A stretch of 47,282 nucleotides of DNA, from the NCBI GenBank assembly GCA_012838585.1, contig DUPB01000038.1, forward strand, positions 1 to 47,282, written 5' to 3'. The notes below the pieces were generated by a model. It was not told the origin of the DNA. It worked only from the letters and a program-made list of their open reading frames with translations, and did no database searches. The position numbers were made by a program, and so were the translations under genes. Source of the stretch: Bacteroidales bacterium (GTDB taxonomy: Bacteria; Bacteroidota; Bacteroidia; Bacteroidales; Dysgonomonadaceae). This document shows, one piece after another, positions 3,826-43,905 of the stretch; position 1 is the stretch's first letter, and every line of letters starts with the position of its first letter.

Positions 3826-3895
3826 ACTTAACTTTCGCGTGATTTATGTCAGTCGAGCCTGAAAGCTAATAAACAGTTACAGGCGAAAGTTAAGT
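3826..3895. repeat. 13-bp perfect inverted repeat (ACTTAACTTTCGC / GCGAAAGTTAAGT) separated by 44 bp, upstream of cobB
   Basis: Arms at 3826-3838 and 3883-3895. Confidence 0.7.
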
Positions 3896-24943: not shown

Positions 24944-25079
24944 TTTTCTTCTTTCAGGCTCGACTGACGCAAACATTTGCGATAAGCCGAACGCAGAGTC
25001 AAGCTTGCTTGAACTATGCTGAGGCGAGCAAATATCTACTGAGTGAATTTTGCGAGGTCTTCGCACTGAAAGAAGAAAA
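24944..25079. repeat. Intergenic structured repeat, copy A (short form)
   Basis: 24951-25055 matches 42334-42438 at 104/105; bounded by perfect 14-bp inverted arms TTTTCTTCTTTCAG / CTGAAAGAAGAAAA. Confidence 0.9.
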
Positions 25080-35352: not shown

Positions 35353-35400
35353 GATAGGACATGCAATATATTAAAAGACAATCTATTAGTCTTTATTTGC

Positions 35401-35469
35401 GCGTGAAAAGTCCTAATCGCCTTGAATGTTAACGCGTGAAAAGTCCTAACTGACGCGTGAAAAGTCCTA
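35401..35469 (+). repeat. Three direct repeats of GCGTGAAAAGTCCTA(A)
   Basis: Copies start at 35401, 35434 and 35455 (spacings 33 and 21 bp). Confidence 0.95.
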
Positions 35470-37417: not shown

Positions 37418-37575
37418 GTTCATTAAAATCAGACTATTTCTCGCCACGGCATAGTCCAAGTAAACTTGTCCTCTGCTCGTTTGGCTTAACGAAATAGTTC
37501 ATTAAAATTAGACTATTTCTCGCCACGGCATAGTCCAAGTAAACTTGTCCTCTGCTCGTTTGGCTTAACGAAATA
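37418..37575. repeat. Tandem duplication, 2 x 79 bp, of an intergenic repeat unit (copies C1, C2)
   Basis: GTTCATTAAAAT(C/T)AGACTATTTCTCGCCACGGCATAGTCCAAGTAAACTTGTCCTCTGCTCGTTTGGCTTAACGAAATA twice; one substitution between units. Confidence 0.97.
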
Positions 37576-37610
37576 GTTCCATACACTGAACAGTAAAATA
37601 TACGAATCGC

Positions 37611-42282: not shown

Positions 42283-42319
42283 TCCGTAGTTCAATCTTAT
42301 TAAGTTTTACTTTCACATG

Positions 42320-42650
42320 TTGCTGTTTTCTCGCTTTCAGGCTCGACTTACGCAAACATTTGCGATAAGCCGAACGCAGAGTCAAGCTTGCTTGAACTAT
42401 GCTGAGGCGAGCAAATATCTACTGAGTGAATTTTGCGACCCATCATCTGCTCGATTGCTAAAAGAAAAAAACTCTGCTTCGCAGCACTTTTGCTCGCAAC
42501 AGCATAACATGAACAAGTTCATTTCTGCACGTCTTGCTTAACGCAAAAGTTCGGCTTAGCCTCAGACAGTTTTTCTTTTTCACGCGATCTTCGCAGGATG
42601 TGTCCCCGTAAAAGTTTGCGAGGTCTTCACGCTGAAAGCAAAAACAGCAA
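42320..42650. repeat. Intergenic structured repeat, copy B (long form, two inverted half-units)
   Basis: Left 105 bp matches copy A; termini TTGCTGTTTTCTCGCTTTCAG / CTGAAAGCAAAAACAGCAA are imperfect inverted repeats; right half contains an inverted diverged core. Confidence 0.88.
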
Positions 42651-42726
42651 TTAAAACATGCGAATATTCAATATCATCAGAAGAAGCTAATAACAAAAGA
42701 ATTAAACCTCATAAAATTTTAAAAGT

Positions 42727-43797
42727 ATGAAAAAGATATTTATTGGCGCAGTATGTACCATGCTGTTACTATGCACAGCATTACAAGCGCAACAGAAAGA
42801 GAAAGTGATCCTCGATACCGATATGGTAGAGGTATTTGACGATGGCGTCACCATGATGATGCTGGCCAAGGCACCCAACATCGACCTGTTGGGGGTAACC
42901 GTGGTGGTTGGTAATACATGGGTAAATGAGGGAATAGCCTACGGTATACGGCAACTGGAAGTGATTGGCAGAACGGATATACCGGTAGTTCCCGGTATTC
43001 GTCAGCCGTTATACCCCGACCGCTTTGAAACCATTAAAAACGAGCGTATCCTGTTTGGTATTGGTGACGCGTACGTGGGGGCTGCCGGTTACCCCGAGCC
43101 CAAGACGTGGGAATCGGTTTACCTGCAGAAGTACGGCAGCGAGCCCACGGTGAAACCATTGGATATGAAGGCGATAAATTTCATTATCGAGCAGGTGAAG
43201 CAGAACCCCAACGAGATAACCATCATCGCCATCGGAACCTGCGTGAACCTGGCAACCGCCGTGCGCGTGGCACCCGAAATCGTTCCGCTTATCAAGCGGG
43301 TGATTTACATGGGAGGTTCCTTCTTTAAACCGGGGAATACCACGCCCACGGCCGAGTTCAACTGGTGGATGGATCCGGATGCCGCCAAGATATGCGTGCG
43401 TACGCCCTTCAAGGAGCAGGTTATCGTGGGGTTGGACGTGTGCGAGACCATGCCGTTCCGCAAAGACAAGTACGAGGAGATCATTTCCATTACCAAGAAC
43501 CCGGAGTTGAAGAACATGCTCAACCGTAATTTCCTGAAGACGCTCTTTATCGAGGATCCCAACTACGTGCACTATATCTGGGACGTGATTGCCGGTGCCA
43601 TCATGATTGATCCCACGCTCATTACCGGTGAGGTTACCCGTTACGTGGACGTCAACTCGCAATTCGGTTTCTCTTACGGTCAATCCCTGGCGTTCGACGG
43701 GAACCAGCCGGTGGGAAGTCAGCTGGCTCGCATCATCCTTACCGTCGATAGCGACCGCGTGTGGAAAATGGTAGAGGAGTATTGCAGTAATTTTTGA
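42727..43797 (+). CDS. Secreted nucleoside hydrolase (IUNH-like, variant metal-site loop)
   Basis: 356 aa; signal peptide MKKIFIGAVCTMLLLCTALQAQ; KVILDTDMVEVFDDGVTMMMLAKAPNIDLLGVTVVVGNTW; ITIIAIGTCVNLATAV; YMGGSFFKPGNTTPTAEFNWWMDPDAAKI. Confidence 0.9.
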   Translation: MKKIFIGAVCTMLLLCTALQAQQKEKVILDTDMVEVFDDGVTMMMLAKAPNIDLLGVTVVVGNTWVNEGIAYGIRQLEVIGRTDIPVVPGIRQPLYPDRFETIKNERILFGIGDAYVGAAGYPEPKTWESVYLQKYGSEPTVKPLDMKAINFIIEQVKQNPNEITIIAIGTCVNLATAVRVAPEIVPLIKRVIYMGGSFFKPGNTTPTAEFNWWMDPDAAKICVRTPFKEQVIVGLDVCETMPFRKDKYEEIISITKNPELKNMLNRNFLKTLFIEDPNYVHYIWDVIAGAIMIDPTLITGEVTRYVDVNSQFGFSYGQSLAFDGNQPVGSQLARIILTVDSDRVWKMVEEYCSNF

Positions 43798-43813
43798 TGC
43801 GTTAAAAGTTGAA

Positions 43814-43905
43814 TTTTCTTAGGAGCGAGAGCAGAACTGAGCTTGCTTAAGCTTTGCCGAGCGACGACAGAAAAGGCTGCGAAGCTGAAAGTTTGCAAGG
43901 TGGAG
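43814..43905 (+). repeat. Diverged member of the intergenic repeat family (copy D)
   Basis: GCGAGAGCAGAACTGAGCTTGCTTAAGCTTTGCCGAGCGACGACAGAAAAGGCTGCGAAGCTGAAAG resembles the core of copies A/B. Confidence 0.65.

Follow-up and report, generated by a model that had tools for sequence, protein, structure and literature searches.

REP, BIME and REPIN sequences are short, bulged, intergenic palindromes present in high copy number, in several subfamilies per genome and in clusters, which are moved in trans by a separate protein, TnpA-REP (RAYT). The ends of IS200/IS605 elements (IS608, ISDra2) have subterminal hairpins with a guide sequence at the hairpin foot, and insertion takes place 3' of a fixed short motif, with no duplication. 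Integron attC sites are recognised by their fold rather than by their sequence, and are inserted without a scar in same-direction arrays. MITEs, including BrickBuilt of P. gingivalis, are non-autonomous, intergenic and palindromic, and in this case from the Bacteroidales contain tandem units (PMC4596501). Mitochondrial double-hairpin elements and the yeast GC clusters (e.g. GC42) are short intergenic hairpins that show presence/absence polymorphism and merging, by a mechanism that is unsettled (PMC4478555).

We analysed a stretch of 47,282 nucleotides (the window) from a genome of the GTDB genus Proteiniphilum (G000; 3.24 Mb in 278 contigs, 99.7% complete), in which related repeats occupy four places, A to D. 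We consider it probable, at about 80%, that these are copies of a short, non-autonomous, hairpin transposon-like mobile family, moved in trans by a putative enzyme acting on the folded strand. The traits listed above for REPs, IS200/IS605 ends and attC sites recur in this family, mobilisation in trans, recognition by fold and a guide at the hairpin foot being putative here. It is best read as REP- or MITE-like, with an anatomy closest to that of the mitochondrial double-hairpin elements, which also join a large and a small hairpin in one mobile unit. This likeness is one of design only. The mitochondrial elements and GC clusters are organellar, with shorter, GC-rich units, and no sequence relation is expected. 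The yeast GC clusters have AG at their flanks (PMC4478555), which resembles the GA next to the two-hairpin units. As with MITEs, presence/absence is polymorphic, the 79 nt hold no ORF and the unit's stems are its ends on one side, but no target site is duplicated beyond a shared (G)A. BrickBuilt, for its part, has 23-nt tandem repeats, small inverted ends and a reportedly limited host range (PMC4596501), whereas the two-hairpin family is order-wide. REPs form inverted pairs; our units, in contrast, have two hairpins, a length of about 79 nt and an architecture conserved throughout the order, and they form same-direction 79-nt arrays and nest. They differ from IS200/IS605 in having no transposase gene in the unit or linked to it, and from attC in that we read no R''/R' boxes and found no integron integrase and no cassette genes.

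The earlier note on this DNA had not recognised the repeats as a named family. In agreement with this, neither the window (at the gathering threshold) nor site B (up to an E of 1) had a match in Rfam, and the open-licence literature yielded REP, REPIN, BIME, P. gingivalis MITEs, FopS sRNAs and mitochondrial hairpin elements, with no description of the two-hairpin family.

Copies in the window and their common structure

Comparison of repeats within the window confirmed that A and B are nearly identical (104 of 105 positions between 24951-25055 and 42334-42438) and showed that 37418-37575 is a 79-nt tandem pair with 99% identity. The proposed kinship of all four places was borne out by a single covariance model (R1), which matched each of them. 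Genome-wide E was ~1e-18 to 1e-20 for A (24973-25035, plus strand), B (42356-42418, plus strand) and C (37433-37498 and 37512-37577, minus strand), while the match to D (43815-43873) was weak (E 0.008); the subfamily of D (IV) has stronger members elsewhere, e.g. at loci L027 and L132.

The unit is about 74-79 nt long and consists of an imperfect main hairpin of 59-66 nt and, directly 3' of it, a tail of 11-13 nt forming a mini-hairpin. The earlier note had overlooked the tail, which belongs to the unit. On the model strand, a typical unit reads ACTATTTC-GTTAA-GCC..GCAGAG-CAAG-N4-CTTG-ACTATGC..GGC-GA-GAAATAGT; the tail is, order-wide, often C-NNN-GAA-N'N'N'-AA, and the right end of the unit is (T)GA. 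Unpaired bases of the main hairpin are conserved and its stems covary freely. At least four subfamilies occur in G000: I (ACTATTTC/GAAATAGT, site C), II (CTTTTGC/GCAAAAG), III (ATATTTGC/GCAAATAT, sites A and B) and IV (ATTTTCTTAGG, site D).

Both hairpins covary strongly, in support of the pairing. We aligned 21 hand-picked units with MAFFT, no structure being given, and then drew the 24-pair hairpin on them. In this alignment 92.5% of the cells were paired, compared with 81.4% after shuffling and at most 42.4% with slid partners; 54 cells showed double changes (15.8 after shuffling), and 14 pairs carried them. Later alignments gave 217 double-change cells against 61.5, 340 against 108.9 (G000 alone) and 326 against 100.2 (named genomes), but they were fitted to the covariance model and thus lean towards it. 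The mini-stem of 3 bp was formed in 40 of 65 order-wide tails, where 2000 permutations gave a mean of 7.7 and a maximum of 19. Conserved pairing with changing arm sequence, as first proposed from the window, therefore lies far above chance.

Site A, between a sigma-70-family gene and lon, which are convergent, holds a subfamily III unit (24973-25046, plus strand, R1 E 1e-18 genome-wide) made of a main hairpin (24973-25035) and a tail (25036-25046, CTACTGAGTGA). It separates the left half (24944-24972, plus strand; TTTTCTTCTTTCAG GCTCGACTGACGCAA) from the right half (25047-25079, plus strand; ATTTTGCGAGGTCTTCGCA CTGAAAGAAGAAAA) of a host palindrome that recurs with and without units in G000; the halves pair, and the right one belongs to a repeat family (D5) common to B.

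Site B, which has a TPM-domain gene on one side and a nucleoside hydrolase gene on the other, is a composite of nested palindromes (42320-42650), three layers deep, with two units in opposite orientation. Its outer arms are TTGCTGTTTT (42320-42329) and AAAACAGCAA (42641-42650), and the next layer is GCTTTCAG (42333-42340) and CTGAAAGC (42632-42639). The subfamily III unit (42356-42429, plus strand) has its hairpin at 42356-42418 and its tail at 42419-42429. The other one, of subfamily II (42473-42550, minus strand; hairpin 42486-42550, tail 42473-42485; R1 E 2e-17), interrupts an inner host palindrome (42438-42620, plus strand; ACCCATC..AAAAGAAAA / TTTTCTTTTT..GGATGTGTCCCCGTAAAAGTTTGCG), which is found without that unit at L022, L014 and other loci.

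Site C, flanked by a band-7 gene and an ORF that has no Pfam match, is a head-to-tail pair of subfamily I units on the minus strand (R1 E 8e-20 for each): the first (5') covers 37499-37577 (hairpin 37512-37577, tail 37499-37511) and the second (3') 37420-37498 (hairpin 37433-37498, tail 37420-37432). Site D is a subfamily IV unit (43813-43888, plus strand), ATTTTCTTAGGAGCGAG..GACAGAAAAG with the tail GCTGCGAAGCTGA. A further copy of a host palindrome, without unit, had escaped the earlier note; it lies at 3843-3893 (minus strand), is 78% complementary to 42306-42356 and is related to the empty-site matches described below. The intergenic stretch 35388-35469 also contains GCGTGAAAAGTCCTA in three imperfect copies, with spacings of 33 and 21 nt.

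This anatomy corrects two earlier descriptions in part. The outer arms do pair and differ from copy to copy, but only those of C (ACTATTTC/GAAATAGT) are the unit's own stem, those of A and B belonging to host palindromes. Similarly, B does contain a unit of the same kind as A, but it is no single copy, as the composite also holds the minus-strand unit.

Abundance and genomic context

The further copies that the earlier note had proposed to look for are numerous: 28 matches were obtained in G000 by a BLASTN-type search with copy A and 133 with R1 (E up to 0.1, 150 candidates scored). With the covariance model at one threshold throughout, the family was present in 35 of 39 genomes of the genus, with 79-122 copies each in G000, G007, G015, G021 and G030; the four genomes with zero copies (G005, G008, G027 and G036) serve as a negative control. 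The model also matched 35 of 246 sampled Bacteroidales genomes (28 of 166 genera), which is a lower bound, since few candidates were scored per genome and the filters were strict. A 27-base core pattern matched at least 118 stretches among 85,462 species genomes. These were labelled Bacteroidales, except for one 'Delongbacteria' bin, which may be contaminated, and a small number of records named 'uncultured bacterium'. Phage and plasmid records gave no family matches, and 3 of 2.9 million viral contigs did. Many contigs of G000 (C9, C16, C34, C132, C182 and others) start or end within ~250 nt of a unit, which suggests that the repeats break the assembly.

Nearly all units examined in G000 (116 of 121) lie outside called ORFs, and several of the remaining 5 overlap short, doubtful ORF calls. 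Between same-strand genes, 33 units were oriented with the transcript and 35 against it (p = 0.90); 16 units lay between divergent and 11 between convergent genes. The flanks listed had no U-tract. Of the earlier suggestion of a structured RNA or terminator under pairing constraint, the constraint thus stands, while the orientation counts and flanks speak against a terminator or cis-RNA. Copies at L041, L050 and L054 share neighbouring genes and have conserved positions in several species. At these loci and at L044, in four genomes of the genus, members are bordered by direct repeats similar to the complement of the -7 promoter box of Bacteroides (TACAAAnnTA).

A lagging-strand bias is expected of IS608-like elements. 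No such bias was seen in a small sample from G015, a complete relative, where the orientation relative to replication was 18:11 (p = 0.26; counted over matches with E <1e-3 in 80 stretches of 20 kb at even spacing, each array as one; origin near position 1 and terminus near 2.28 Mb, by skew).

Target sites, nesting and empty counterparts

The base preceding the unit (-1) was A at 91% of the insertion sites, compared with 29% in the background (p ~1e-28 after removal of duplicate contexts), and base -2 was G at 58%. Empty sites and orthologues showed no duplication beyond one or two shared bases, (G)A. Because this left target matches the (T)GA right end of the unit, a new unit can land behind an old one, which accounts for the head-to-tail arrays with a period of 79.

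Units also nest in other palindromes, in either orientation. The host is GCTTTCAGGCTCGACTGACGCAA..TTTTGCGAGGTCTTCGC.CTGAAAGC around subfamily III units (A, B), ACCCATC..AAAAGAAAA..TTTTCTTTT..GGATGTGTCCCC around the subfamily II unit of B, and of the GTATGGAACC / GGTTCCATAC type around many subfamily I units (C). Subfamily II units were likewise found inside subfamily IV hairpins, at CTTGA^RCTTTG (L125, L127 and L141). In the relative G286, the orthologue of window 42711-42727 (L158) has a palindromic element of ~112 nt immediately upstream of the nucleoside hydrolase start codon; it has GTATGAAA on both sides, is absent in G000 and G030, and is of the type that hosts subfamily I units at other places.

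A related empty site in which nothing was left behind was found, in the DNA stretches compared, for 53 of 102 merged units or arrays (both flanks abutting, no gap within 12 columns); as hosts recur, these 53 are not all independent. The block removed had a near-constant length in each subfamily, mostly the hairpin plus 13 nt (I), 12-13 nt (II), 11-12 nt (III) or 12 nt (IV). For example, the subfamily III unit of site B, flanked by CGACTTACGCAA^ATTTTGCGACCC, has a scarless empty counterpart CGACTAACGCAA^ATTTTACGACCC in L104, and its subfamily II neighbour has one in L022. With both units removed, site C reads GTGTATGGA^ACCTATCGG when aligned to GGTGTATGGA^ACCTATCGG of L086, and over GTGTATGGA^ACCTATCGG it is exactly the L086 sequence. 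The empty site of L113, CCTTGGGA^ATGATTATT, is identical in G286.

Between related genomes, units were gained or lost as exact 79-nt blocks or multiples thereof. The orthologous site of L124 has no unit in G286, one (79 nt) in G030 and two in G000. L098 is empty in G030 and filled in G286 and G000, while L100 is filled only in G000 (two units; 0 in both G030 and G286). Three units were found against none at L099 (compared with G030) and at L088 (compared with G286), and one against two at L094 (compared with G030); L087 is filled in all three genomes. At the orthologous sites, composite B is missing almost in full, both in G030, with 97-99% identity of the flanks, and in G286, with 88-89%; the simplest reading is that it was inserted in G000. 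In G030, site A is deleted. Its orthologue in G286 has identical outer arms, an inverted inner layer and a different subfamily III variant at the same centre. Site D is present in G030 and absent from G286.

Some absences could be exact deletions. The place where a unit stood at the L143 site is marked by remnants of 13-14 nt (ACTTTTTTAATGA and ACTATTTTTAATGA, at L301 and L312); they look like products of deletion across the hairpin, the way in which units decay. The clean empty sites differ from such footprints. With more than 130 copies, related empty sites without scars and orthologues with 0, 1 or 2 units, the idea of a non-autonomous element inserting into stem-loops is strongly supported, and none of the three outcomes named beforehand as speaking against the earlier proposals (no further copies, no significant covariation, no empty/filled polymorphism) occurred.

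The putative mobilising enzyme and other explanations

The enzyme that we postulate would recognise the folded single strand through the shape of its stems and its unpaired bases rather than through its sequence, which would explain the concerted change of the stems. It would cut after (T)GA at the end of the unit and after (G)A in the target, and join the ends directly. An HUH-type or similar strand-transferase appears the likeliest class, given that no target bases are duplicated and that the mini-stem occupies the foot of the hairpin, which in IS200/IS605 and REP elements is the place of the guide tetranucleotide. Read on the complementary strand, the main hairpin has one half of the mini-stem at its foot, the position of GTAG in REPs, and by analogy with the IS608 and REP systems (PMC8266576) the covarying mini-stem is possibly a guide-site pairing.

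The mobilising enzyme was not found with RAYT, Y2 and integron integrase profiles or among ORFs near copies; the transposase or relaxase with matching ends that the earlier note had proposed to look for did not turn up there. PF01797 (REP-associated tyrosine transposase) had no match in the five genomes with 79-122 copies, the E. coli control being positive. It matched in 6 of the 39 genomes of the genus and was absent from most high-copy genomes; the matches that were translated look like IS200-type TnpA or remnants, with no R1 match in their loci. NF047646 was above cut-off in none of the 39 genomes, again with a positive E. coli control, and the IS91-type Y2 search gave no match, its positive control being silent as well. 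The integron integrase model TIGR02249 was above cut-off in 0 of 39, with only the scores of general tyrosine recombinases, which are found in all but one genome of the genus. No mobility gene recurred among the ORFs near copies, the recurring ones looking like ordinary chromosomal genes. An ORF of 803 aa between two copies at L141, considered as an autonomous partner, looks by reading like a membrane permease.

A motif scan of the loci examined disclosed two REP-type transposases near hairpins. The one at L201 (2500-4020) has several palindromes of ~120 nt (GGATTTGTAATCC..GGATTACAAATCC type) on either side. Its motifs (NHLH, WQ, YIHMNP) fit TnpA subclass 2.6, and it was the only such gene met. 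The flanking palindromes (GGATTACAAATCC type) are unrelated to the two-hairpin units, so that we rejected it as the mobiliser; at the other end of the locus, a two-hairpin unit sits within a palindrome of this type. The second (L319, 3740-4384) contains a nine-residue unit (SNELHSPDN) repeated in tandem and in frame, which looks as though a palindromic repeat had entered the gene and multiplied there. It was discarded as a REPtron, as there was no further strong family match near it.

These searches bear directly on the idea that the family consists of REPs moved by a RAYT, perhaps of the Bacteroidetes subclass 2.6, whose gene has been lost or has diverged beyond detection. The intergenic location, high copy number and bulged hairpin would suit it, and Quentin et al. 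(2018) described 'atypical secondary structures' on the flanks of subclass 2.6 genes, with further copies at other places in the genome; REPs of this subclass are also said to lack the GT[AG]G tetranucleotide (PMC6006769). That set was retrieved with PF01797 (PMC6006769), which makes our negative result with this model informative. CTAC or CCAC, the complement of GT[AG]G (CTAC being GTAG on the other strand), stands at the hairpin foot in 17 of 102 own units and in 2 of 65 order-wide tails, so that GTAG is absent from the foot of most units. With no RAYT in the genus by two models in the sense given above, and no REPtron arrangement at L201 or L319, we regard this explanation as unlikely. Movement might also need no dedicated enzyme, if slippage, template switching or gene conversion between palindromes let one arm template the other and so changed the arms in concert. 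The footprints at the L143 site look like slippage across a hairpin and the host layer of site A is inverted in G286, but exact 79-nt boundaries at unrelated unique sites and the strong preference for A at -1 are not what such events would produce, and we hold it to be improbable.

That the units are structured cis-RNAs (terminators, mRNA stabilisers or regulatory leaders) kept by selection on the transcript is very improbable. Strong covariation in two hairpins, conserved internal-loop bases and the conserved positions of L041, L050 and L054 would fit, but the balanced orientation, the lack of U-tracts and of an Rfam match, the scarless presence/absence between relatives and the nesting do not. 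We give still less credence to gene-less integron-like cassettes, in which a tyrosine recombinase would recombine an attC-like hairpin in single-stranded form. Scarless insertion, same-direction tandem arrays and recognition by hairpin shape would agree with it, as would the widespread tyrosine recombinases; against it stand the TIGR02249 result, the absence, by reading, of an RYYYAAC..GTTRRRY pair around the hairpin, and a target that is (G)A and not GTT.

We therefore keep to a hairpin transposon-like family moved in trans. Its units look selfish, with effects on nearby genes as side effects. Tentatively, and with some doubt, they may form a class of bacterial mobile DNA in its own right, with two-hairpin units spread over the order and inserted without scars by a shape-reading strand-transferase that is neither a RAYT nor an integron integrase. 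Rfam and the open-licence literature searched appear to lack this high-copy, order-wide family of a major gut and digester lineage. It adds hairpins to many intergenic regions and, with many copies at contig ends, probably breaks assemblies. Bacterial cases that reveal insertion boundaries, empty sites and stem covariation together are rare, and this is one; it is also a bacterial counterpart to the mitochondrial double-hairpin elements, whose mechanism is likewise unsettled. With it, one can test directly which enzyme moves REP-like palindromes in the absence of a REP transposase.
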